Positions 14,491 through 27,707 of a DNA stretch of 64,000 bases are shown in pieces (the stretch's first letter is position 1; every line of letters starts with the position of its first letter). The stretch is from contig NZ_JAFEJA010000002.1 in NCBI RefSeq assembly GCF_016919245.1, positions 1,056,501 to 1,120,500 on the forward strand, given 5' to 3'. Position numbers and translations under genes: made by a program. This stretch comes from Streptomyces zhihengii (GTDB lineage Bacteria > Actinomycetota > Actinomycetes > Streptomycetales > Streptomycetaceae). The notes below the pieces were generated by a model. It worked only from the letters and a program-made list of their open reading frames with translations. It ran no database searches and had not been told where the DNA came from.

Positions 14491-17019
14491 ATGCCCGTCG
14501 AACGGCCCGCCGTACCGCTCTGGCTCCGGCACGCCCTGCGTGCCCAGGCAGGGCCCGTCCCCTGGAGCGCGATGGCGAGGGGCGCGGCCGCCGTGCTGCC
14601 GCTGCTCGCCGCCGTCCTCGCCGGAGCGCCGACCGCCGGGGTGCCGGCCGCGATCGGGGCGCTGTTCGCCGGCATCAACGACCGGCCCGGCAGCCGGCGC
14701 ACCGCGGTGGCGGCCATCGGGGTGCCGGCGGTCGCCGGAGCGTGCGGGCTGCTGGCGGGGACGCTCGTCGGCGCGGGCGTCCCCCGGGACCTCGAGGCAT
14801 GGCTGCTGCCCGTGTTCCTCGGACTGCTCGGCCTGTTCGCCGGTGCGATCAGTGCCACCGGTGCCACCGCCTCCGCCTGCGGGACGCAGGTGCTGATCGC
14901 CGCCGTCATCGGCGCGGGCATGGACCTGCCCGAACCGGCCTGGCTGCGCGGCCTGTCGTATCTCACGGGCGCCGCCTGGCCGCTGCTGCTGCGCCGGCTG
15001 GTGCCGGGGCCCCGGCGGCGCGGCCCGGCGCCGTACCGCCTCGACGGCGAGCACGCGGCGCTGGCCGCCGTCTACGAGCGCACGGCCGCTCTGCTGGCGG
15101 CGGCGGGCGACCCCGCGGCCGCGGCCCGGCGCACCGCGCTGACCGCCGCGCTCGACCACGCCCAGGACGTGCTCGCCCGCACCCGCTCCGGGCCGCGTGC
15201 CTCCCGGGCGGAACGCGGGCTGCACGCCCGGTACGGTGCCGCCGCGGCCCTGGCCGAGGCGGCGACCGCGCTGGCGTGGACGGGGGAGCCCGTGCCGGAG
15301 CGCGCGGTCCGCGGCGCAGAGCGCCTCGCGGCCGCCGCCCGTACCGGCAGCCCCTGCGGCCCTCTCCCGGCACCCCCGCGCACCGCCGCCGGTCTGCGCG
15401 CCCTCGACGACGCGCTGCTCCGCGCCGCGGAGGCCTTCGACGAGGCGCCGCCCCCGACCGCCCCCGCCCGCGGCACCACGCGGGCCGGTGGCGTCGCCTC
15501 CGCGCCGCCCGCACGGGCCCGCGCCACGGCCGGCTCCCGGGAGGCCGGCAACCGGTGGCGGTCTTCGTCGTGGGGGACCCGTGGCGCGGCAGGGGCTGAC
15601 GGCGGTGCCGGTGGCGGCCCGGAGGCCGGGATGCTGCGCCGGTCGGGTGCTTCGTCGTGGGGGAGCCGTGACGCGGCAGGGGCTGACGGCGGTGCCGGTG
15701 GCGGCGGGGAGGCCGGGACATCGCGTCGGCCCGGTGCTCCGTCGTCGGTGACCGGCGGCCGCGGTGACGGCGGCACCGACGGCTCCCGGGAGGCCGGTAT
15801 CCGGTGGCGGTCTTCGTCGTGGGGGAGCCGTGGCCCGGCGGGGAGTGACGGCGGTGCCGGTGGCGGCGGGGAGGCCGGGATGCTGCGCCGGTCGGGTGCT
15901 CCGTCGTCGGTGACCGGCGGCCGCGGTGACGGCGGCACCGACGGCTCCCGGGAGGCCGGTATCCGGTGGCGGTCTTCGTCGTGGGGGACCCGTGGTGCGG
16001 CAGGGGCTGACGGCGGTGCCGGTGGCGGCCCGGAGGCCGGGACATCGCGTCGGCCCGGTGCTCCGTCGTCGGTGACCGGCGGCCGCGGTGACGGCGGCAC
16101 CGACGGCTCCCGGGACCGTGCCCCGTCGCCCGGTACCCGGGGGACGGCCGGGGCGCACGGCCCGACCGGCCGGGCGGGAGGCCCCGTCGGGGCGGTGGTC
16201 CGCCGGGTGGCCGCCGTGGTGCGGCGGGCCGCCGGGGCGGCCGGGCGTGAGTACGGGGTGCGGGTCGGGCTGTGCTGCGCGGTCTCCGCCGCGCTCGCCC
16301 TGGTGCTGGGGCAGCAGCACTGGTACTGGCTCCCCGCGACCGCCGTGTTCCTCGTGAAGCCGGACCTCGGGCCGCTCGCCTCCCGTGCCGTGTGCCGGGC
16401 GCTGGGCACCGTCGTCGGAGCGGTGCTCTGCGCCGGGCTCCTGGCGACCGGTCCGGGGCCGGAGGCGACGACGGCGACGGTCGCCGTCTGCGGGGCCCTC
16501 GTCCCGTTCGCCACACGGCACTTCGCCGCCCAGACGGCCGTCGTCACCGTGCTGGTGCTGTGCCTCGTGGCTCTCGCGGGGGAGCCGCCCGCCACCGGTG
16601 AGCGGGTGGTGCAGTCGCTGCTGGCGTGCGCGACCGTCCTCGTCGTCGGGCATCTGCCGCTGCCGGGCCGGCACGGGAACGCGGTACGTCACCGTCTGGA
16701 CGTCGCGGGCGATGCCGCCGGACGCTACCTGGACCATGTCCTGACCTCGCCCGGCGACCGCGCCGGCCGCCGGCTCCTGCGCCGCGAGGCGTACCGCGCG
16801 GCCGCCGCCGCGCAGACGGCGGCCGGACTGTCGGCCGCCGAACTGCCCTCGATCGCACGGCACAGCGCGGGGGCACATCACATCGCCTCGGGGCTCACCG
16901 GACTGCTGGACTCGATCACCGCCTGCGCCGTCGAGGCGGACGACAGGGCGGCGCCGGTCTCCCGCGGGGACGCGGACCACCTCAACGCCCGGCTCGCCGA
17001 ACTCACCCGCGCCACCTGA
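14491..17019 (+). CDS. FUSC-family membrane protein with an in-frame minisatellite
   Basis: An 842-residue protein. Residues about 25-165 contain several hydrophobic helices (VLPLLAAVLAGAPTAGVPAAIGALFAG; LLPVFLGLLGLFAGAI). A helical domain follows. Residues about 350-540 are a Gly/Ser/Arg-rich repeat linker. Residues about 575-730 are the FUSC-type transmembrane block (VGLCCAVSAALALVLGQQHWYWLPATAVFLVKPDLGPLASRAVCRALGTVVGAVLCAGLL), followed by a cytoplasmic helical end. FUSC proteins include aromatic-acid and siderophore-related exporters; the substrate is unknown. The ATG at 14491 follows ACAGGAG. The linker separating the two membrane halves is unusually long because of the tandem repeats. 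Confidence 0.85.
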   Translation: MPVERPAVPLWLRHALRAQAGPVPWSAMARGAAAVLPLLAAVLAGAPTAGVPAAIGALFAGINDRPGSRRTAVAAIGVPAVAGACGLLAGTLVGAGVPRDLEAWLLPVFLGLLGLFAGAISATGATASACGTQVLIAAVIGAGMDLPEPAWLRGLSYLTGAAWPLLLRRLVPGPRRRGPAPYRLDGEHAALAAVYERTAALLAAAGDPAAAARRTALTAALDHAQDVLARTRSGPRASRAERGLHARYGAAAALAEAATALAWTGEPVPERAVRGAERLAAAARTGSPCGPLPAPPRTAAGLRALDDALLRAAEAFDEAPPPTAPARGTTRAGGVASAPPARARATAGSREAGNRWRSSSWGTRGAAGADGGAGGGPEAGMLRRSGASSWGSRDAAGADGGAGGGGEAGTSRRPGAPSSVTGGRGDGGTDGSREAGIRWRSSSWGSRGPAGSDGGAGGGGEAGMLRRSGAPSSVTGGRGDGGTDGSREAGIRWRSSSWGTRGAAGADGGAGGGPEAGTSRRPGAPSSVTGGRGDGGTDGSRDRAPSPGTRGTAGAHGPTGRAGGPVGAVVRRVAAVVRRAAGAAGREYGVRVGLCCAVSAALALVLGQQHWYWLPATAVFLVKPDLGPLASRAVCRALGTVVGAVLCAGLLATGPGPEATTATVAVCGALVPFATRHFAAQTAVVTVLVLCLVALAGEPPATGERVVQSLLACATVLVVGHLPLPGRHGNAVRHRLDVAGDAAGRYLDHVLTSPGDRAGRRLLRREAYRAAAAAQTAAGLSAAELPSIARHSAGAHHIASGLTGLLDSITACAVEADDRAAPVSRGDADHLNARLAELTRAT
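15532..16104 (+). repeat. In-frame minisatellite: units of 249, 162 and 162 bp
   Basis: The phrase GGCTCCCGGGAGGCCGG recurs at 15532, 15781 and 15943, with a truncated form at 16105. Spacings are 249, 162 and 162 bases, all multiples of three, so each unit adds 54 residues (83 in the first, which carries an internal 87-base duplication). Units are nearly identical at DNA level, showing recent or ongoing homogenisation. They encode alternating RWRSSSWG and SSVTGGRGDGGTDG phrases within the linker of the FUSC protein. Confidence 0.92.
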
Positions 17020-17061
17020 GGCACCGGCCCCGGGGCCCGTCGTGAGCCGCCCGGGCGGGTC

Positions 17062-20000
17062 TCAGCGGGCCGCCGCCACCGTCAGCTCGGTGACCGGCGG
17101 GCCGCCGTCGAGGGACACGGCGATCCGGTAGAGGCCCGACCAGGGCAGCGTGACGGTGCCGGACAGCCCGTGGCCGTCCGGACGCAGACCGGGGGCGAGC
17201 ACCGGGCGGCCCGTCGTGACGTCGGTGACGGTGCAGCCGACCCCCGACAGACCGGCGGCGCCCGTGATCCTCAGCGACCACGGCTCGCCCGTGGTCACGG
17301 CGTCCGGGACGGCGAGACCGAGGCTGTCCGACCCGGCCGCCACGAGCCCGATCGGCCCGCCCGGAGCCGTGCCCCCGGGCACGCCGCGTGCCGTGGTCTC
17401 GGCCGTCCTCGGCACGGCCGCGCCCACGGACTCCGGGGTCACCGGACGGCCGGGCTGCTCCGTGAGCACCGCCGCGACGTACCCCAGGACCACCGGATGG
17501 GACGTCATCGATCCATGGCGTGCCGTCACATGGCAGAGCGCCGCTGTCGATCCGCCGGGCGCGGCGGCGTCCCGGGGCACCAGACCGTCACCGCCGCGGT
17601 CCCAGCGCACAGGGGTGCCGTCCGCGAGCCGCAGGAGTTCCCCGTTCGTGCGGGTGCGCAGCGCGCTGTACAGCGGTTCGGCCTCCCCGTGGCCGATGCG
17701 CAGGCTCTGCGGCGTCGGCTGCCCGATGCCCGCCACGCCCCGGTGCGCGGGCAGGACGGCCGGCGCGCTCCGTACCGCCCGCTGGAACTCCAGGGCCGCG
17801 GTGCCCAGTTCGGCGTCCGCCCCGAAGTCCGCCAGGTCGGCGGGGGTGAGCCGCTCCGGCGCCCCGCCGCCGCGTTCCACGCAGGGCAGGGCGGGGAGCA
17901 TGTCGTACACACCCGGCATCGTGAGGACGGCCCGGCGCATACGGCGTGCCGCGCGAGACCGGGGCCGCCGGTCGCCGAGCATCGCCGCCACCGCGACGGA
18001 CCCCTCGAAGGGGGTGCCGAGGGTGAGGAGCACCCGGGTGTCGGCGGCGAGCCCGGGTGTGTGCGCGAGCGCTGCCCGGGCCAGCAGCCCGCCCAGGGCG
18101 TGGGCGACGAACACCAGCCGGGGCGGCTGCGCCCTGCCCGGGCCGCCCTGCCCCGCGCGCCGGAGGCTCTCCCGCCAGGCGGTGAGGTGGCGCTGCGCGG
18201 CCTCGGCGAGCAGCGCGGCGTTGCGGGCGGCCGGCTGCCGCCAGTCGTACGCGAACTCCAGGACCGCGTCCGGGTGGACGACCCGCGACCGCACGGTCTC
18301 CAGCAGCGGTGTGTACGGCTCCACACCGCCGAAGTACGGCGCCCAGACCGGTCCGCGGAGCAGCCGCGCGGCACGCAGCCGGCCCGCGCCGGCCCTGTCC
18401 GCGTCATCCCGGTCCGCTGCGGTGAACCGCAGCGCGGGATGGTCCCGGTGGCGCCAGGCTTCGAGCTGCTCGCCCGGGGCCTGCCCCCACACGAGCGAGG
18501 ACGTGTCCGTGTCCAGCAGCTCGCTCCCGAGGAAGCCCGGCACGACGACCACCGCGTCCCGGGTGAAGGCGGGCCGCCCGCCGGGCGCGGACGGGCCGCC
18601 GTGGTCGGGCTGGTCGACCTCGTGCCGGTAGGCCTCCACCAGCGCGTCGCGCCACGACGTCTGCCGGTCCGCGCCGCTGAGCAGGTACTCCGAGACCAGG
18701 TCGCCGCGGGCGACGGTGTTCACGGACGGCAGTTCGGCGCCCAGCCGCACGGACGGGGCGTCCTGCTCCGAGGGCGGCGCCACCGGGCCGATGTGCCGGG
18801 TGAAGTCCGCGATGTCGGCGGTGCTGAGCCGGTCGCCCAGCACCCGCCCGGTGCCGCTGTCCAGATCGACGCCGTTGAGCCGGGCGGCGAGCGGCACCAG
18901 GTGCGGCAGGGCGTCGCCGATCTCCGCGGCGAGGTCGCGCACCAGCGTCGGGTGCCGCTCCAGGTCGCGGGTGCGCCACTCGGCCACGCGTGCCAGGACG
19001 TCCTCGCGGAGCGCCCGGGCGTCGGGCGCGTCCGCCGTGCCGGTCCGCCGGTACAGCCGCAAGCGGGCGGTGTCCACCGACAGCAGGGCCGTACGGTCCT
19101 GCCGGGCGGACAGAGCCGAATGTGCCTCTGCCAGCAGGCCCTGGGAGGCGGCGAAACGGCCGGCGTCCTCCTCCAGACGGGCGCCGAGCAGGGCGATCTC
19201 CACGAAGGCCGCCGCCGATTCCTGCGACGCCCGGTCGAGGGCCGGTTCGATCAGAGGCCGGGCCTCGTCGGTGCGGCCCAGGGCGCCCAGGGCGCGCAGC
19301 CGCAGCAGGGTCAGCGCCACTGTCCCGGCGTGCTCGCCGGTCCGCTCCGAGAGCAGGGCCAGGGCCTGTTCGGGGTGGCCGTCGGCGAGCAGCCGGCCGG
19401 CCTCGGACTCCGCCTGCCGGGCCCAGGTCACCTCGTCCGCCTGTGCCCTGAGCGAGGGCGCGACGGTGATCCCCAGCCGGTCGGAGAGGTACACCTGGGC
19501 GCGGGGCGGCAGTTCGTCCAGCGCGGACTCCAGCAGGGGGGCGGCGGCGTCGAGCCAGCGCCCGTCGAGCGTGCCGGCGAGCTGGTCGAGCGCCATGCGG
19601 TGGTAGAGCTCCTCCGCCCGGTGCTCCACGACGAGCGCCGGATCGGTCTCCTGGCGCCCGAGGCGGTGGTAGTAACGGTAGGCCTTCTTGTCGATCCGCC
19701 GCATGAGCGCCGGATCGTCCCGGCGGAGCAGCAGCAGCATCGCCCGCCGCACGTCGGGCCGGTGCACCACGGCCTCCCGGCCGGGGACGTCCTCGACGAG
19801 CGAGGCCTCCGCGCGCAGCAGCCGGAACAGGTCGTGCGCCCGGACGGGATCGACGTCGCCGAGGCCGCAGGGCCCCGCCAGCACCTCGCGGATGACATCG
19901 GGGGTGACCCGGCGGACCGTCAGCCCCGGACTGGCGATCCGGCGCAGCGCGGGATCACCGAGATGGTCCAGGATGCGCTGGTAGAGGGCGCCCTGGAGCT

Positions 20001-21471
20001 GCTCCGGATCCATCAGCAGGGAAAGCTGCCGGCGGGACGCGGGATCGTCGAGAGCGCCCGGTCCGCCCTGCCGGATCACCTCGGCGACGAGTTTGAGACT
20101 GAGCGGGTTGGTGCCGAAGCGGCGCACGACCCCGGGCAGGAAGTCGCCGCCCGATTCCTCGCCCCCGCCGGTGTGGTGGCGGAGGAAGTCGAGCGCCAGC
20201 GCCTGGTCGAACCCCCGCAGTTCGAGCGACTCGGTGCCGTAGGCGCTGCGCGAGGCGTCGTCGAGGGGCGCCCGGCCCGCGAGCACCACGCGCAGCCGGG
20301 GGCACACCGACTGGAGGACGTCGAGGAACTCCGTCAGCCGGGTCATCGCGCTGCCGCCCTGCCGCTGCGCCTGCTCCATGGTGTCCAGTACCAGCAGTAC
20401 CGGTCCGTCGCCGTCCGCCGATCCGGCCAGCCGGGCGAAGAGTTCGGCGAGCTCGCGCTCGTCGCGGGCGTGGCCGCGCCGGCCGCCGGAGTGGGTGCGG
20501 GCCCGCTCGGCCGAGGATCTGTGGTCCGCGAGCAGGGTCAGCCGCACCGCCGCACCCAGTTCGGCGGCCGCGGGCGCGAGTTCGGGGTGGAGCAGCCCGA
20601 GCTGCCGTGCCGCCTCCGCGAGCAGGGTCAGCGGCTGCTGCGGCAGCAGGTCGGCCCGGTCGAAGGAGAGATACGCGAACGGCAGCACGCGCGCGCCCGG
20701 TTCCCCGGCGTGGTCCAGGACGAAGCGGGCGATCAGGGTCGACTTCCCGACGCCGCCCGGCCCGTGGATCATCAGCCGCGGGCGCCCCGCCGGGGTCGGC
20801 CGGGGCGTGCCGCCGCGCCGGGGGAGCACCCCCACATGGGCGGCCAGCATGTCCAGCTCGTGGTGCCGTCCGACGAAGCGGTCGCCCACGAGGGCCCGTA
20901 ACGGCTCCAGCAGGGAGGCGAGTTCGATGCGGCCGCGCACCTCACCGGGCTCGGGCAGGTCCACGGAGTGCTGGGCCAGCGCCGCCCGCGCCCCCGGGGC
21001 GGAGGCGAACCACTGCGTCACGGTCAGCGCCGCGTGCAACTCGTCGACTCCGGACGACGCCAGCTCCCGCGCCCGGCCCGTCAGCAGCCGCTGCGCCCAG
21101 GCACGGGCGGTGTCCGCCGGGTCGCCGGGCACGGACAGCGCGGCGCGCAGCATCCGCTCCGGTGTCCGCAGGCGCTCCAGCGCGGCCGAGCGGACCTGCG
21201 CGGTCAGCCGCCAGCGGTGCCCCTCGCGGGTGCTGACCCGGTCGCAGTCGAACGCGAGCATCTCCCGCAGCGCCGGGTCGTCCGGCTGCGCCCCCGCCCG
21301 CTCCGCCGCTCCCGCGCCCAGCGCCCCCGCCTCGAACGCGCCGAGCAGCGCCGCCGCCTCCCGGTACGCCCACCGGGCGGCCGGCACCGGTTCGGGCACG
21401 GCCGCCGGACCGGCGGCCGGGGCGCTGAGCAGCGCCCGGATCCGGTCGGCCGTCAGACGTCGTTCAGTCAC
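17062..21471 (-). CDS. STAND NTPase fused to an LCAT-like alpha/beta-hydrolase domain lacking the serine nucleophile
   Basis: A 1,469-residue multidomain protein. Residues 1-195 are helical. FVGRHHELDML (199-209) leads into a STAND/AP-ATPase module: Walker A GPGGVGKST (237-245, Lys243), Walker B LLVLDTM (Asp363), an RVVLAGR strand and the GTNPLSLKL segment. Residues about 700-950 are TPR-like helices. Residues about 1000-1330 resemble lecithin:cholesterol acyltransferase-type hydrolases: VVVVPGFLGSEL (oxyanion region), YDWR, the elbow AHALGG, GGDGLVP (Asp1295) and RHGSM (His1319). The elbow residue that should be Ser is Ala1125 (codon at 18097-18099). A beta-rich domain ends the protein. GTG 21471 overlaps the upstream stop by eight bases. 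It is the last gene of the four-gene operon. I infer a sensor/regulator of an NLR-like conflict system. Confidence 0.85.
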   Translation of the reverse strand: MTERRLTADRIRALLSAPAAGPAAVPEPVPAARWAYREAAALLGAFEAGALGAGAAERAGAQPDDPALREMLAFDCDRVSTREGHRWRLTAQVRSAALERLRTPERMLRAALSVPGDPADTARAWAQRLLTGRARELASSGVDELHAALTVTQWFASAPGARAALAQHSVDLPEPGEVRGRIELASLLEPLRALVGDRFVGRHHELDMLAAHVGVLPRRGGTPRPTPAGRPRLMIHGPGGVGKSTLIARFVLDHAGEPGARVLPFAYLSFDRADLLPQQPLTLLAEAARQLGLLHPELAPAAAELGAAVRLTLLADHRSSAERARTHSGGRRGHARDERELAELFARLAGSADGDGPVLLVLDTMEQAQRQGGSAMTRLTEFLDVLQSVCPRLRVVLAGRAPLDDASRSAYGTESLELRGFDQALALDFLRHHTGGGEESGGDFLPGVVRRFGTNPLSLKLVAEVIRQGGPGALDDPASRRQLSLLMDPEQLQGALYQRILDHLGDPALRRIASPGLTVRRVTPDVIREVLAGPCGLGDVDPVRAHDLFRLLRAEASLVEDVPGREAVVHRPDVRRAMLLLLRRDDPALMRRIDKKAYRYYHRLGRQETDPALVVEHRAEELYHRMALDQLAGTLDGRWLDAAAPLLESALDELPPRAQVYLSDRLGITVAPSLRAQADEVTWARQAESEAGRLLADGHPEQALALLSERTGEHAGTVALTLLRLRALGALGRTDEARPLIEPALDRASQESAAAFVEIALLGARLEEDAGRFAASQGLLAEAHSALSARQDRTALLSVDTARLRLYRRTGTADAPDARALREDVLARVAEWRTRDLERHPTLVRDLAAEIGDALPHLVPLAARLNGVDLDSGTGRVLGDRLSTADIADFTRHIGPVAPPSEQDAPSVRLGAELPSVNTVARGDLVSEYLLSGADRQTSWRDALVEAYRHEVDQPDHGGPSAPGGRPAFTRDAVVVVPGFLGSELLDTDTSSLVWGQAPGEQLEAWRHRDHPALRFTAADRDDADRAGAGRLRAARLLRGPVWAPYFGGVEPYTPLLETVRSRVVHPDAVLEFAYDWRQPAARNAALLAEAAQRHLTAWRESLRRAGQGGPGRAQPPRLVFVAHALGGLLARAALAHTPGLAADTRVLLTLGTPFEGSVAVAAMLGDRRPRSRAARRMRRAVLTMPGVYDMLPALPCVERGGGAPERLTPADLADFGADAELGTAALEFQRAVRSAPAVLPAHRGVAGIGQPTPQSLRIGHGEAEPLYSALRTRTNGELLRLADGTPVRWDRGGDGLVPRDAAAPGGSTAALCHVTARHGSMTSHPVVLGYVAAVLTEQPGRPVTPESVGAAVPRTAETTARGVPGGTAPGGPIGLVAAGSDSLGLAVPDAVTTGEPWSLRITGAAGLSGVGCTVTDVTTGRPVLAPGLRPDGHGLSGTVTLPWSGLYRIAVSLDGGPPVTELTVAAAR

Positions 21472-22570
21472 AGGACCCTCCCCTCCCGTCGAGCAGCAGC
21501 CGCGCACGGTCCGCGGCGGCGCGGGACACCAGGTCGAACGGCAGTGGTGCGGACGGATCGCCGCGGTCGCCGAGTGCCTCCTCCAGTACGGACGCCACAA
21601 GCACCGCCACGGCTTCATCCGGAAGCGAATTCCCGATTCCCTCGGCCACCCGTACGAAGAAGCTACGCAGATCCTCAACCCGGACCGGCCGCAGATCCTC
21701 GGTCAGCGCGGTGTCCGCGACCGACGGCGGCAGCGCCCGGTCGTAGGCGAGCAGCACCACTCGCATGCCGCCGCCCGTCTCCCGGCGCTCCGCGGCGACG
21801 GCCAGGCCCTCGATCAGCCGCCGGGCGGGCTCGGTGAGATTGGGCGAGTCCAGCGCGTCGAAGACGAACCAGCGGTCGCCCGTGCCGCGGATCATGCCCT
21901 TGAACTTGCTGAGCAGGGTGCGGCCCTGCGTCTCCTCGTTCTCGCGGGCGTCGACCCGGAAGCGCTCCCAGCACAGCAGATCGGTGATCTCGCCCATCAC
22001 GTCGGCCGGCCCCGCCGGGGAGCCCGCCCAGGCGGAGAAGTCGACGAGGTAGGGGGCCTGTCCGTGCAGGGACTCCAGGACGTGCGAGATCAGATGCCAG
22101 GTCCAGGTCTTGCCGGTCGCCGGGGCACCGGTGACGACCAGCACCCGGCAGCCGTTGCGGTGGAGCAGTTCCCTCAGGTGCCCGCGCAGTTCCTCGCGGT
22201 CGATGAAGGCCCGGGGCCTTCCGTAGCCGATCAGCGGTACGGCGCAGGGGTCGTCACCGCCCCCGGCGGCGGGCGTCGGGGCCTGGGCGACGAGTTCCTT
22301 GAAGATCGTGAGCGCGCTGCTGTCCGACTCCGCCGCGACGACCTCCACGAGCGGCCGGAGGCGCCTTCGGGGCGCGGCGTACCGCAGGACGTCGTACCAC
22401 AGGTCGAACGCCGGCTCGCCCCAGGCGAACTGACCGGGCGGCAGCGCGGCGGCGTCGGTGATCCGGCGGATCCGGCCCGCCTCGTAGTAGAGGCCGCAGA
22501 GCGCCTCCCAGAGCCGCTTGCTCTCCGCGTCCGCCAGGGAGAAGACCGTACGGTCGAGAAGGGGGACCAC
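21464..22570 (-). CDS. P-loop NTPase with N-terminal EAD1-like adaptor domain
   Basis: A 368-residue protein. Residues about 10-80 are a helical domain clearly similar to the N-terminus of the upstream protease (shared pattern RxLxxxLCxxxY, WGxPxxxxWxD, LRxLxxVV). Residues about 108-300 are a P-loop ATPase: Walker A TGAPATGKT (Lys154) and Walker B RWFVFDALD (233-241), in a layout like small STAND/AAA switch ATPases. No transmembrane segment is seen. GTG 22570 follows the protease stop by six bases, and the end overlaps the next gene by eight bases, so all are coupled. In known conflict systems such adaptor domains link effectors to NTPase regulators by homotypic contact. Its specific partner here would be the protease (inference). 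Confidence 0.82.
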   Translation of the reverse strand: MVPLLDRTVFSLADAESKRLWEALCGLYYEAGRIRRITDAAALPPGQFAWGEPAFDLWYDVLRYAAPRRRLRPLVEVVAAESDSSALTIFKELVAQAPTPAAGGGDDPCAVPLIGYGRPRAFIDREELRGHLRELLHRNGCRVLVVTGAPATGKTWTWHLISHVLESLHGQAPYLVDFSAWAGSPAGPADVMGEITDLLCWERFRVDARENEETQGRTLLSKFKGMIRGTGDRWFVFDALDSPNLTEPARRLIEGLAVAAERRETGGGMRVVLLAYDRALPPSVADTALTEDLRPVRVEDLRSFFVRVAEGIGNSLPDEAVAVLVASVLEEALGDRGDPSAPLPFDLVSRAAADRARLLLDGRGGSCD

Positions 22571-22576
22571 GGGCGC

Positions 22577-23671
22577 TCACACCCGCCCGGCGCGGCGCAC
22601 GCCCTCGGTGACCTTGTCGATGCGTATGCCCTGGTTGCGGTACTCGGGGGGTTCGGTGAGCGGGCCGATCTCCACCCAGCGGTGGTGGAGCGCGACCAGC
22701 CGCCACCGTTCGTCGAACACCGGTGAGCCCGAGGACCCGTGGTCGGTGTCCGTCCAGTACTGCACCACCTCGTCGTCGGCGTGGCGCACGACGTTGTGAT
22801 GGGCCGCGAGCTTCTTCACCCCGCCCTGGGGGTGCTGCACGATGTAGACCCGGTCGCCCGCGGCGACCGTGCTCGTGTCGGGCAGCTCCACCACGGCCGT
22901 CCCCTCGGGCACCGGAGCGGCGACCCGCACCACGGCCCAGTCGTACGCGGGGTCGCCGACGGCGGACTCCACGGCGCAGGGCACCCGCACATGCGCCAGC
23001 TCCCTGCCCCCGAGGTCCGCCTCGTAGCCGAACCAGGCCTCGGCGCGGGCCGCGGGGCGGGCGGGGTCGGAGTCGTCGAACAGCACATGATGATTGGTCA
23101 GCAGCAGGTCCTCGCCGATACGGAAACCGGTGCCGTGGTACTGCCTGCCGTCGGGGAACGTGACGAGCAGCCGGGCGACCGCCGTGGACAGCTCCATGCC
23201 CCGCCGCAGGAACGACACGTCGAGATAGGAACCGGTCCGGAAGATCCGCCGCTCCGCCGCGTCCGGGTCGTGGAAGTGACGCCAGGTGCCGGGGGCCGCG
23301 GGCGGCGCGGGCGCCTGGACCACCGGTTCGGCGCGCAGGAGTTCGCCGACGCGTCCGGCGAGGGCCGTGTCGGGGCCGTTCACGACCTGGTCGAGCAGCG
23401 CCCGCAATTTGTCCTGATTGCGTGCCGTGGTGATGAGGTCGTGCCACACGGCCGCCATCGGCTGCCCCCAGTGGACGCTCGCCGGCGAGATGCCCGCCTG
23501 CTGCGCCAGCGCGATCACCGGCCCCTCGCGGTAGTGCACCGAACAGAGCAGGTCCCGCAGCTCACGGGAGGCGGGCAGGCTCCAGTCGAAGGGCACCCGG
23601 TCCAGGAAATGGACACCGTGCCCCGCCGTACCGCCGTTCATCGCCCGCTCCAGCGCGTCGTCCCGGCGCAT
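22577..23671 (-). CDS. Trypsin-like serine protease with N-terminal EAD1-like adaptor domain
   Basis: A 364-residue protein without signal peptide. Residues about 28-98 form the same helical adaptor domain as the next gene. Residues about 140-355 are a V8/trypsin-like peptidase with an intact triad: His195 in LTNHHVLF, Asp244 in YDWAVV and Ser314 in GSSGSPVF. Being cytoplasmic and paired with an adaptor, it is likely an effector that cleaves internal targets when released, not a secreted enzyme. Start ATG 23671 has a G-rich site; ATG 23641 (GGAG upstream) would shorten it by ten residues without loss of domain. It lies 97 bases after the hydrolase gene. Confidence 0.87.
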   Translation of the reverse strand: MRRDDALERAMNGGTAGHGVHFLDRVPFDWSLPASRELRDLLCSVHYREGPVIALAQQAGISPASVHWGQPMAAVWHDLITTARNQDKLRALLDQVVNGPDTALAGRVGELLRAEPVVQAPAPPAAPGTWRHFHDPDAAERRIFRTGSYLDVSFLRRGMELSTAVARLLVTFPDGRQYHGTGFRIGEDLLLTNHHVLFDDSDPARPAARAEAWFGYEADLGGRELAHVRVPCAVESAVGDPAYDWAVVRVAAPVPEGTAVVELPDTSTVAAGDRVYIVQHPQGGVKKLAAHHNVVRHADDEVVQYWTDTDHGSSGSPVFDERWRLVALHHRWVEIGPLTEPPEYRNQGIRIDKVTEGVRRAGRV

Positions 23672-23768
23672 CGCGCCACCCCCGAGGTCCCCTCGTGCAA
23701 CCGGTCGCCCCCGGCCCCGTGATCCAGATCATCCCAGCGGCGGGTGACGGCACGGCTCCTTTCGGCCA

Positions 23769-25118
23769 TCAGCGCCGCCTGGGCAGGAACTCCCAGTAGG
23801 CGCCGTCCCGGTGCTCGACCGCCGTGAGGCCGAAGCGACCCGCCGGGGGAGTGCCGTGGTGGAGCACCGCGTGGACGTCCGACAGGATCGAGCTGTGGTC
23901 GCCGATGTACGAGTGGCCCATCAGACCGGTGTCCAGAGCGGTCGCGTCGACCGTGTCCACCCCCTCCACCACGACGATCCCCTCGCCCGACTGCCCGGCC
24001 CGCGGGTAGCCGGCGAGGCGCCGGGACATCCTCAGCGCCCGGTCCCTGGAGGACGCGTAGAGCGTGGTGCGCCGCGCCTGGCCGACGAGCGCGGGGGCGA
24101 CCTGGCGGAAGACGTCCGCGTCGACGTCGGGCGCGGCGAGCACCACGTTCCCCAGTTGTGCGGCGCCGGCCGGGAGCGCGGTGCCGTCGAGGCCCGCCAG
24201 GGCCTCGGTGAGCACCCGGTTGCCCATGCTGTGGGCGATGACATGGACCTCGTCCGCGCCGCACCCGGTCAGCGTCCGCCGCAGGAAGTCCTGGAAGTGG
24301 GGGACCGTCCAGCGGGCGTTGTTGGCGTCCTCCTCGTAGCTCAGGACGCCGCCCCGGGACGGCCAGCTGTAGAGCACCGGCACGCCGGTGAAGCCGAGGT
24401 CGTAGGCGATCTGCGCGGTGCGCACGGCGGCGGCCCCGAAGCCGACGTTGTAGCCGTGCACGAAGACCAGGAGCCGCCGGGGGCCGGAGCCGTCGAGCAG
24501 CGACCGCGCCTCCCGTCCGAAGCCCTCGGCCGTCAGCTCCGTCGTCCCGCCGAGGACGACGTCCCGCTCCGGGCTGGAACGGAAGCGCAGCAGCCAGCGG
24601 CGCGGCTTCTCCGTCGCCCCGAGCCGGTGGTCGTCGGGGATGCCCACCAGGGCCTTGCCCCAGCGGAGTTCGCCCCGCCCGCCGCCGAAGCCGCCGTCGG
24701 TGCCGCCGCCTCCGGGCGCGTCGTCCCGGTCCGTCGCGTACAGCACCGGGACGATCAGGGACCGGAGATACGGCAGCGAGCCGCGCGGGGCCTCGGTGGG
24801 CCGCCGTTCGTGGCCGGTCACCAGCGCGCGGTACTCCGCGGCCAGCCGGTCGCCGAGCGGCGGGTGGGCGCCGAACAGCACCGCGACCTGCCGCCGCGCC
24901 GCCGCGGCGGCCTCCTCGGCCTCGCGCGCGGTGTCCTCGTCGGCCCCGTCGTCCGGGCCGGCGGCGGCTTCCCGCGCGGTCTGCGCGGCGGCTTCGAGCG
25001 CGCGCAGCCCCACGAGGACCTCCGAGGCGAACGACTCCAGTTCCCCCTCGCCCAGCAGTTCCGTCGCGGCGGGCCAGACCTCGGCCGCGGCCGTCGCCAG
25101 CGCGTCGGACTCGTCCAA
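23769..25118 (-). CDS. DUF900-type alpha/beta hydrolase with helical N-terminal domain
   Basis: A protein of about 449 residues. Residues 1-130 are helical and alanine/glutamate-rich. The rest matches DUF900 (alpha/beta hydrolases of unknown substrate): VPVLYATDRD, GIPDDHRLG, LVFVHGYNVGFGAA, LYSWPSRGG, the intact nucleophile elbow VIAHSMGN, VVLAAPDVDADVF (acid) and GHSYIGDH (catalytic His). The start is uncertain: TTG 25118 follows GGGGGAAGAG and lies about 50 bases after a good promoter (TTGTGC-16-TAGGAT), whereas the longest frame would begin inside that promoter. It is the first gene of the four-gene conflict-type operon and likely its active lipase/esterase component (inference). Confidence 0.82.
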   Translation of the reverse strand: MDESDALATAAAEVWPAATELLGEGELESFASEVLVGLRALEAAAQTAREAAAGPDDGADEDTAREAEEAAAAARRQVAVLFGAHPPLGDRLAAEYRALVTGHERRPTEAPRGSLPYLRSLIVPVLYATDRDDAPGGGGTDGGFGGGRGELRWGKALVGIPDDHRLGATEKPRRWLLRFRSSPERDVVLGGTTELTAEGFGREARSLLDGSGPRRLLVFVHGYNVGFGAAAVRTAQIAYDLGFTGVPVLYSWPSRGGVLSYEEDANNARWTVPHFQDFLRRTLTGCGADEVHVIAHSMGNRVLTEALAGLDGTALPAGAAQLGNVVLAAPDVDADVFRQVAPALVGQARRTTLYASSRDRALRMSRRLAGYPRAGQSGEGIVVVEGVDTVDATALDTGLMGHSYIGDHSSILSDVHAVLHHGTPPAGRFGLTAVEHRDGAYWEFLPRRR

Positions 25119-25174
25119 CTCTTCCCCCGTGCCTCGCCGTTGCCGGACCAGACGATGGTCCCCGCCCTCGGCGC

Positions 25175-25202
25175 ATCCTAATCGGCCGCCGCGCCCGCAC
25201 AA
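25175..25202 (-). promoter_or_regulatory. Promoter of the NTPase-protease-hydrolase operon
   Basis: On the reverse strand TTGTGC (25202-25197) is separated by 16 bases from TAGGAT (25180-25175). Both are one to two mismatches from housekeeping hexamers and fit the TANNNT rule. It supports starting the hydrolase at 25118 rather than further upstream. Confidence 0.45.
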
Positions 25203-25298
25203 CGTCCCCGGCGCGCGGGCGCGGGCGCGCGCCGGGGCTGCGCGACCGGGTCGGAGAGGGGCGGCGCGGCCGGCCCGGTCACCGGTTCGGCGCGGCCT

Positions 25299-25384
25299 GG
25301 TCAGGCGGCTGCGCCGTCCGGCACCGGCTCGGACGCGGGCCGGTCAGTCGGCTGCGCCCTCCGGCACCGGCTCGGGCGCGGGGC
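25299..25384 (-). repeat. 43-bp tandem duplication of the 3' end of the MFS gene
   Basis: Bases 25299-25341 and 25342-25384 are about 88-90% identical. The second copy contains the stop and last codons of the MFS gene (PEPVPEGAAD); the first encodes a ghost of the same end (PDGAA). It is a local duplication past the stop codon, without coding effect. Confidence 0.8.
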
Positions 25385-26570
25385 GGGCGAACAGCGCCGC
25401 CGCGACCAGCAGATAGGGGAGGCCCAGCAGGGCGAAGACCGTCCCGTGGGAGGCGTGGCCGGACAGCGTGGCGTACGCGCCGTACACGCCGAGCGTCGCC
25501 GCGCCCGAACCGAGCCCGGCCAGCGAGGTGACCGTGGCCCGGCTGGGACCGGTGATCGCCGCCTGGAGCCGCGCGTCCACCAGGACGTCGGCGAGCTGGA
25601 ACACCAGGAAACCCGCGCCCACGAGGGCGAAACCGGCCGGATGCCCCGACAGCGCGCCCGCGGCCATGGCCAGCGCCCCGCCGGCCACCAGCGCCCCGAG
25701 CGCCCGCCCGGTCAGCCGCTCGCCCCGCCCGACGAGCAGCGAGCCCGCGGTCACCCCGGCCCACACCACCAGGACCAGCAGGGGCACCGCGGACTCGGCC
25801 GCGCCGGTGGCAGCGGCCAGCAGCGGCACGTACTCGTCCAGGGCGCCCCACAGGGAGGTGACGGCCACGCTCAGCAGCAGCGCCCGCCGCACCGGCGCGC
25901 TGCCGCGGACCTCGGCGAGCCCGGCCCGCAGCGTCCCGGACGCACCCGCGCCGTCCTCCTCCCGTGTGTCACGCACCGCCTTCCGGTGCTCGGGCAGGGC
26001 GGCGCCCGCGGCCGCGCACAGCAGGCACGCCACCACACTCGCGGCGGCCACCGCGGGCAGTCCGCCGACCGCCAGCACGGGCGCGGCCACCGCCGTGGCG
26101 GCGGCGGTGGCGGCCATGCTCCAGGCCGCCGCGCGCCCCATCACCCGCGCGTAGCGCGAGGCCGCGCCGAGCCGTTCGAGCTCGTCGTGGGCGAGTGCCT
26201 CGTAGGCGCCGGAACGCAGCGAGCCGCCGACGCCCCACAGCACGAAACCGGCGGCGAAGGCGCCGTACGAGGGCGCCAGCGACCAGAGGGCGAACCCGGC
26301 GCCCGTCAGACAGGGGCCGGCGACGAGCATGAGCCGGCGCGACACCAGGTCGGCCCAGACCCCGGAGGGCACCTCGGCCACCAGACCGGTGAGCGACCAG
26401 AGCGCGAAGAGGGACGAGATCTCGGCCGTGCTCAGCCCGTGCTCGGCGAAGAGCAGGGCGTAGAGCGGATAGAGGAGGACGAAGTCCTCGAGGCCCGCGT
26501 ACAGGCAGAGACGGCGCTCCAGGCGCCGGACGGCTGCTGCGTCGTTCGGGCATGACGACAGGGTGAGCAT
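25344..26570 (-). CDS. MFS transporter
   Basis: A 408-residue major facilitator protein with about 12 hydrophobic helices. The cytoplasmic loop 2-3 motif appears as VPSGVWADLVSRRLMLVAG (variant of GxLaDrxGrrxxl), and a basic/acidic central loop (EHRKAVRDTREEDGAG) separates the two halves. The N-terminus YAGLEDFVLLYPLYALLFAEHGLS is typical of a small MFS group related to multidrug exporters. ATG 26570 follows AAGGACC. The substrate is unknown and there is no dedicated regulator beside it. Confidence 0.85.
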   Translation of the reverse strand: MLTLSSCPNDAAAVRRLERRLCLYAGLEDFVLLYPLYALLFAEHGLSTAEISSLFALWSLTGLVAEVPSGVWADLVSRRLMLVAGPCLTGAGFALWSLAPSYGAFAAGFVLWGVGGSLRSGAYEALAHDELERLGAASRYARVMGRAAAWSMAATAAATAVAAPVLAVGGLPAVAAASVVACLLCAAAGAALPEHRKAVRDTREEDGAGASGTLRAGLAEVRGSAPVRRALLLSVAVTSLWGALDEYVPLLAAATGAAESAVPLLVLVVWAGVTAGSLLVGRGERLTGRALGALVAGGALAMAAGALSGHPAGFALVGAGFLVFQLADVLVDARLQAAITGPSRATVTSLAGLGSGAATLGVYGAYATLSGHASHGTVFALLGLPYLLVAAALFARPAPEPVPEGAAD

Positions 26571-26945: not shown

Positions 26946-27707
26946 ATGCCCGTCAGACAGGGAGCCGCACGGCTGCTGCTCCACGCCCTGTGCGCGGCAC
27001 TCGTACTCACCGGCTGCGCGGACGGAGGGGGCCCGTCCGGCGCCGTCCGCACCCCGCCCGGCACCGACGACTCCGCCCGGCACGCCGCATCACCCCTGCC
27101 CGCCCCGCCGCCCCGCGGCATCCCCGGTCTCGGCCCCGCCACCGGGGCCGGGCTCGGGGACGCCAACCGGCAGGCGCTCGTCGTCACCGGCGAGGGCCCC
27201 GACTCCAGCGGTTCCTCGGCCGTGCTCTACGAACGCGACGGCGCCGACGCGCCCTGGCGCCCCGTCCTCGGCCCGTGGCCCGCCCACAACGCCCTGCGCG
27301 GCTGGACGCGCGAGCACGTGGCGGACGACCTGCGCTCGCCGATCGGCGTCTTCGGCCTCGGCGACGCCGGCGGCCGGCTGCCCGACCCCGGCACCCTGCT
27401 GCCCTACGACGAGTCCCCCGATTTCGCCACCTCGGGGACCGGATTCCTCGGGGAGCCGCTCGAAGGCTCGTTCGATTACGTGGTCGCCATCGACTACAAC
27501 CGGGTCACCGGCACCACCCCGCTGGACAAGGAGCGCCCGCTCGGCGCCGAGCGCGGCGGCGGCGTCTGGATCCACGTCGACCACGAGGGGCCCACCCGGG
27601 CCTGCGTCTCCTTCGCCGAGGAGCACATGCGCGAACTGCTGCTCGCGCTCGACCCGGACAAGCTTCCCCTCGTCGTCATGGGCCCGGCCGCCGAACTGCG
27701 CAGATGA
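26946..27707 (+). CDS. L,D-transpeptidase (YkuD)-like lipoprotein
   Basis: A 253-residue protein with a lipoprotein signal: positive N-region, hydrophobic core and lipobox LTGC with Cys24. A Pro/Gly-rich linker precedes a YkuD-like domain: RQALVVTGEGPDSSGSSAVLYER, DLRSPIGVFGLGDAGG, and the C-terminal catalytic region GGVWIHVDHEGPTRACVSF. The Cys is retained, but the canonical SHGC motif is replaced by TRAC. Streptomyces encodes several such divergent L,D-transpeptidase-family lipoproteins; whether it crosslinks peptidoglycan is uncertain. GGAGG lies ten bases before the ATG. Confidence 0.8.
   Translation: MPVRQGAARLLLHALCAALVLTGCADGGGPSGAVRTPPGTDDSARHAASPLPAPPPRGIPGLGPATGAGLGDANRQALVVTGEGPDSSGSSAVLYERDGADAPWRPVLGPWPAHNALRGWTREHVADDLRSPIGVFGLGDAGGRLPDPGTLLPYDESPDFATSGTGFLGEPLEGSFDYVVAIDYNRVTGTTPLDKERPLGAERGGGVWIHVDHEGPTRACVSFAEEHMRELLLALDPDKLPLVVMGPAAELRR

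Follow-up and report, generated by a model that had tools for sequence, protein, structure and literature searches.

Four consecutive minus-strand genes in a 64,000-nucleotide stretch of the Streptomyces zhihengii genome (the window, to whose positions all coordinates refer), here labelled HYD, PRO, NTP and STA, form a real, co-inherited and probably immune operon. With guarded confidence, we favour its interpretation as a putative abortive-infection-type CARD-NLR immune operon with an alpha/beta-hydrolase as executioner, and the operon has the look of a bacterial system related to the inflammasome of animals. A previous reading of the sequence alone had described an NLR-like, EAD-coupled conflict operon. 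This description stands: PRO, NTP and STA are co-conserved in 43 of 46 related loci, and the N-terminal adaptors of PRO and NTP both pass the Pfam EAD1 cut-off, being the only two EAD1 matches in the strain's own genome (E ≤ 0.001). What did not stand was the suggestion of a new multi-effector module, as the operon is a variant of the CARD-NLR/LypABC and EAD-coupled NucA-trypsin type and not a new kind of system. Its features are listed below (ORF, open reading frame).

23769–25118 (ORF readable from 25202), minus strand: HYD, DUF900 alpha/beta hydrolase, proposed effector, 449 amino acids
24819–25112, minus strand: HYD N-terminal four-helix bundle, residues 3–100 (AlphaFold model; N-domain profile)
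22577–23671, minus strand: PRO, EAD1/CARD-like adaptor plus trypsin-like protease (Pfam; triad H195/D244/S314)
23333–23575, minus strand: PRO EAD1/CARD-like helical bundle, residues 33–113
21464–22570, minus strand: NTP, EAD1 adaptor plus P-loop NTPase (Pfam; Walker A GAPATGKT at residue 148)
22325–22540, minus strand: NTP EAD1 adaptor, residues 11–82 (Pfam; alignment with PRO EAD1)
17062–21471, minus strand: STA, NLR-like STAND protein (Pfam; homology to LypB-like ATPases)
17062–18684, minus strand: STA LCAT/PGAP1-like alpha/beta-hydrolase domain, from about residue 930, without nucleophile
18097–18099, minus strand: STA Ala1125 codon, at the place of the lipase nucleophile Ser (VAHALGG motif)

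A protease-ATPase-NLR core with CARD-like adaptors

The ORFs follow each other in the order HYD, PRO, NTP and STA (25202–23769, 23671–22577, 22570–21464 and 21471–17062), and these coordinates agree with the spacing first described, namely a 97-base gap between HYD and PRO, a 6-base gap between PRO and NTP and an 8-base overlap of NTP and STA. For HYD, the most likely start is TTG 25118, preceded by GGGGGAAGAG, because its close relatives begin there, which gives a protein of 449 and not 477 amino acids. The promoter proposed ahead of the operon was not recovered, as a scan of positions 16700–25700 gave no sigma-70-like site, and no terminator-like site was found in the same interval; scans of the sigma-70-like type miss many Streptomyces promoters.

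PRO is, as predicted, a trypsin-like protease (Trypsin_2, 1e-22) whose triad His195, Asp244 and Ser314 is intact in all 45 sequences compared, window included, with proteases matching worse than 1e-9 left out. The Walker A motif of NTP likewise bears out its description as a small P-loop ATPase, with AAA_16 remaining below its Pfam cut-off. The common N-terminal adaptor claimed for the two proteins was found in both (EAD1 at 1.6e-7 in PRO and 3.1e-7 in NTP), and the two EAD1 domains can be aligned with each other. For the model of the PRO EAD1, the first 16 rows of structure matches comprised the death folds of FAS/FADD, APAF-1/caspase-9, BinCARD, caspase-1, CARD8 and ASC2 together with two designed proteins, after which Z drops to 3.7; a CARD/death-fold adaptor, as in CARD-NLR systems, sits on the PRO protease. 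Comparison of the EAD1 sequence with the PDB also returned three adenylate kinase sequences, matched over about 54 residues (3.4e-4 to 1.7e-3), which we took as chance.

STA consists of an N-terminal domain, an AAA_16 ATPase (8.1e-12; motifs GPGGVGKS at 237 and VLLVLD at 358), a weakly matched TPR-like region (TPR_19 at E 0.04, below cut-off) and a C-terminal LCAT-like domain, with PGAP1 below its cut-off. It matched the ATPases of two LypABC-like plasmid operons at 6e-43 and 4e-29, LypB itself not being the comparator, and these LypB-like ATPases adjoin trypsin proteins of about 600 amino acids and an endonuclease gene. In the tree, the STA rows and both NucA rows lay on one side of a 100/100 branch and six weak STA relatives on the other. 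Judged by its sequence, STA appears to be an NLR-like ATPase of the LypB kind.

When named genomes were scanned by means of the STA alignment, 54 loci emerged, 46 of which were strong (L007–L052) and form our tally; in the eight weak loci left out of it (L053–L060), neither PRO nor NTP was seen. The three loci of the tally in which PRO, NTP and STA do not occur together (L030, L038 and L045) end at contig edges, and the recurrence of the core in the other 43 is not due to chance. The genes were ordered PRO-NTP-STA in 25 loci and NTP-STA-PRO in 18, with L035 assigned to the latter class through its second protease copy, and plasmids of Paracoccus and Caulobacter showed the window's order as well. 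L006 and L039 carry a fusion of NTP with STA, and a single 1881-amino-acid protein (L090:9151–14796) combines NTP, STAND, EAD5 and trypsin. Of the four genes, the three of the core are conserved together, but the full set is not fixed, HYD being one of several exchangeable genes. In counts that all include the strain's own genome, NTP was present in 10/392 Streptomyces at 1e-8 and in 2/150 relatives at 1e-10, and HYD in 1/150 relatives at 1e-20, with its profile found in 2/296 genomes of the class at 1e-40; PRO matched 14/150 relatives at 1e-10, mostly via its trypsin part alone, and is a poor marker by itself. One 11.54-Mb contig (G313, C1) carries NTP and HYD twice, on opposite strands at 531 kb and 11.01 Mb, as if in long terminal inverted repeats.

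HYD and other candidate effectors

HYD is a DUF900 protein (Pfam, 3.6e-44), that is, a lipase-fold hydrolase with conserved catalytic residues and a predicted death effector. It had been read as intact, and Ser297, Asp359 and His402 were indeed invariant in 46/46 aligned sequences (the window and 45 of 120 listed relatives); Asp359 is our choice of catalytic acid, D331, D333 and D391 being likewise invariant. In the AlphaFold model, residues 3–100 form a four-helix bundle, and segments 164–185 and 401–406, the latter including His402, have a pLDDT (AlphaFold's confidence score) below 50. A profile of this N-terminal domain matched 98 of the 120 listed relatives and, among the fetched loci, only HYD ORFs, with no other protein matched in the fetched lists; from the model, the bundle is a possible inhibitory or docking domain. 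Two of the seven neighbourhoods of HYD relatives that were opened, among 436 matching records, showed plasmid-borne relatives adjoining a CHAT protein (L092) or a caspase (L098). At the second of these, on a Sulfitobacter plasmid, the caspase gene (L098:1989–6050) has the DUF900 hydrolase relative, a CHAT gene and a gene with WD40 repeats as its neighbours.

Within the tally, HYD was found in eight loci, as the first gene in seven and downstream in L052. Another alpha/beta-hydrolase, which we call F2 and which BLAST did not join to HYD at 1e-6, was present in 22 loci (GHSLG invariant in 19 aligned rows), as the first gene in 21; in L035 it is preceded by another protease-bearing gene. HYD and F2 never shared a locus (0/46). 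Neither was present in 16 loci, five of which are cut at their 5' end (L009, L016, L030, L038 and L045), and for L009 and L016 HYD may well lie on another contig. Among the 11 loci that are not cut, five (L020–L023 and L047) carry a small hydrophobic-segment protein downstream, and no effector gene was recognised in L014, L017 and L018. The five small proteins are related, 149–218 amino acids long, encoded 3' of STA and equipped with one to three hydrophobic segments, which makes them candidate membrane effectors. In a plasmid operon of Caulobacter rhizosphaerae that contains this core, the gene in first position (L062:3144–4499) is peptidoglycan hydrolase-like by eye; it had no Pfam match, matched phrog_32486 (a phage family of unknown function) at 1e-14, and possibly encodes a wall-attacking effector.

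On the STAND-domain tree, seven effector labels, assigned by us and including 'none' and 'cut', required 14 changes as compared to 33.3 for shuffled labels, with the program warning of long branches, NucA and wall rows among them. In Streptomyces sp. C10-9-1 (L008), the core sits without HYD at the chromosomal place that corresponds to the window's, flanked by homologues of SpoIIE, ORF 26946–27707 and MFS on one side and of the cyclophilin on the other. HYD had no match at 1e-15 in genome G420, which we take to be of this strain.

These patterns bear on an alternative that we consider improbable, though worth weighing, according to which the protease itself kills by cutting host proteins, and the hydrolase is an accessory enzyme or lipid-signal maker and no zymogen. 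The 11 loci that hold the protease core without HYD or F2 would fit this idea, as would the second trypsin-like gene that comes next in many NTP-STA-PRO loci (two scanned). However, HYD or F2 is present in 30/46 loci and is the first gene in 28, and the small hydrophobic-segment proteins of five other loci and the wall-hydrolase-like gene of L062, recognised by eye, also speak against it.

The degenerate lipase-like domain of STA

STA had been described as a giant STAND NTPase with a lipase-like domain. Both its AAA_16 and its LCAT/PGAP1-like domains were found, but the nucleophile of the latter is gone, with Ala1125 in the VAHALGG motif where 28 of 35 fused relatives have Ser. Because of this replacement, the idea of two effectors fails in this strain; moreover, the two hydrolase folds, thought to be different, are both alpha/beta-hydrolases. 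In a set of 36 fused LCAT-like domains (the window and the 35 relatives, some nearly alike), the Ser-Asp-His triad was whole in 20, while 16 lacked a residue, eight of them Ser (window included) and eight His. None of the PRO or HYD sequences in the corresponding sets lacked a triad residue, and this difference suggests that the fused domain is kept for something other than catalysis.

Eight of the 46 loci have the fusion, all of them from Streptomyces within the branch of the window, and LCAT-like stretches were found on 20 Streptomyces replicons and one Embleya replicon; no phage record matched the domain at 0.01. Stand-alone LCAT-like relatives from plasmids kept their triad, Ser included, in 4/4 looked at. 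In the four of these replicons that were opened, all Streptomyces plasmids, such genes stand alone and are divergent from an ATP-binding gene and a WD40-repeat gene (L068, L069), from a single long WD40 gene (L067), or from an ATP-binding gene and a transporter-annotated gene (L066), and these sets are possibly a separate system.

The boldest interpretation of the fused domain makes it a sensor or a decoy, with a backup enzyme and simple decay as alternatives. In its full form, which we put forward as speculative, the domain, akin to the intact stand-alone proteins of Streptomyces linear plasmids, would be a retired lipase serving as integrated decoy or lipid probe; on sensing membrane damage, a plasmid or a lipase of a rival, it would assemble a CARD-protease platform that fires the second, active hydrolase. 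The resulting picture of a lipase-guarding, lipase-armed bacterial inflammasome is equally doubtful. We also considered whether HYD and the LCAT-like domain are mutual backups, given that C10-9-1, without HYD, has a whole LCAT triad, whereas the window's lineage, with HYD, has lost the Ser; this amounts to one event, which is too few, and the idea was set aside.

Relation to known systems and proposed mechanism

CARD-NLR systems, such as the Lysobacter gasdermin operon and Caulobacter LypABC, share with our operon an adaptor plus trypsin-like protease, an NLR-like AAA_16 ATPase with repeats and an exchangeable death effector (PMC13236601). LypA is one fused CARD-protease-ATPase protein, whereas here PRO and NTP are separate, each with its own EAD1; furthermore, a DUF900 hydrolase stands in place of gasdermin or trypsin-endonuclease, and the NLR carries an LCAT-like domain. 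The NTP profile matched the C-terminal part of one of two LypA-like proteins at 2e-14. Two results count against our interpretation: neither the PRO profile nor the EAD1 profile matched these LypA-like proteins, and the EAD1 profile, built from the PRO and NTP adaptors, was found in only 18/46 loci (L007–L023 and L052), so the adaptor is a trait of the window's branch and not of the whole family.

In the NucA-trypsin EAD systems (System 3 of Kaur et al. 2020, PMC7159879), EAD1 likewise occurs on a trypsin paralogue, with a STAND NTPase in some operons; here, an alpha/beta-hydrolase takes the effector place, and none of the four operon proteins matched a NucA-type endonuclease in Pfam. Alpha/beta-hydrolases have already been described as effectors in EAD-type systems (PMC7159879, PMC8195603). 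As predicted effectors they occur near proteases or death-like adaptors, both in VMAP ternary systems, where they are paired with caspases (PMC7159879), and in bDLD3-alpha/beta-hydrolase fusions (PMC8195603); HYD relatives likewise have CHAT and caspase proteins as neighbours. Our operon differs from the VMAP pairs in having a trypsin in place of the caspase, and MoxR, vWA and VMAP genes were found neither in it nor among the ten ORFs scanned around it. The effector gene also comes first in AVAST type I and other nuclease-protease systems, followed by a trypsin-like protease and a sensor ATPase, with proteolytic activation proposed and trypsin-activated pro-nucleases described (PMC12799240). 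Their effector is a metallo-beta-lactamase nuclease and not an alpha/beta-hydrolase, and the operon proteins matched neither this family in Pfam nor any AVAST model in PADLOC. Neither the covered parts of these four papers (PMC7159879, PMC8195603, PMC13236601, PMC12799240) nor literature searches yielded a description of a DUF900 hydrolase combined with the PRO-NTP-STA core, a partial coverage that is no proof of the combination being unpublished. The kind of system is known, and this arrangement of its parts appears new.

We propose that STA would sense an infection cue via its TPR-like and C-terminal parts, bind ATP and oligomerise, and would then recruit NTP and PRO by CARD-type contacts, with EAD1-EAD1 contacts between the latter two. 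Until then, the helical N-domain of HYD and the poorly ordered loops at its active site may keep the enzyme inactive; clustered PRO would cut or release it, and freed HYD would degrade membrane or envelope lipid, leading to cell death. The LCAT-like domain of STA would act as a binding or sensing module and not as a second enzyme. Lysis by LypABC depends on both the peptidase domain and the ATPase domain of the system, and phospholipases are reportedly employed by CARD-NLR variants (PMC13236601).

LypABC is also required for lysis mediated by gene transfer agents in Caulobacter (PMC13236601), and it is conceivable, although in our judgement unlikely, that the core triggers lysis for comparable ends (development, or release of phage-like particles or plasmids) and is not primarily anti-phage. 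The surroundings of the operon would be compatible with this. No defence island is visible, as a Pfam scan found no defence family among ten neighbouring ORFs, which encode MFS and FUSC transporters, an acetyltransferase, two SpoIIE phosphatases, a kinase, a cyclophilin, CsbD, an HC2-like protein and one protein without match. Nonetheless, the patchy spread of NTP and HYD and the changing effector labels are more in keeping with conflict genes than with a fixed role in development. A search for an empty site via the GNAT neighbour showed none, the flanks of four relatives sharing nothing except SpoIIE-type genes in one, and the FUSC-type transporter ORF adjoining the operon contains 81/162-base tandem repeats (15537–16115). 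Far less probable still is an ordinary regulated lipase/esterase operon without a link to immunity, for even though DUF900 and LCAT-like domains are enzyme folds and transcription regulators are known among bacterial STAND proteins (PMC7159879), STA matched no DNA-binding family (Pfam, E ≤ 1), and the EAD1 adaptors, the homology of STA to LypABC-type ATPases and the rarity of the genes argue against it.

Read as a CARD-NLR immune operon, the system brings lipid hydrolases into the adaptor-protease-NLR logic known from the inflammasomes and apoptosomes of animals. A single protease-ATPase-NLR core is combined with two or more families of alpha/beta-hydrolases and seemingly also with effectors aimed at membrane and wall. 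The lipase domain on its NLR, which has degenerated repeatedly, could be what integrated decoys correspond to in bacteria. The mode of firing of bacterial CARD-type systems has been called currently unknown (PMC13236601), and with one protease, one candidate zymogen and two EAD1 domains in the genome, the operon offers a compact test case for it.
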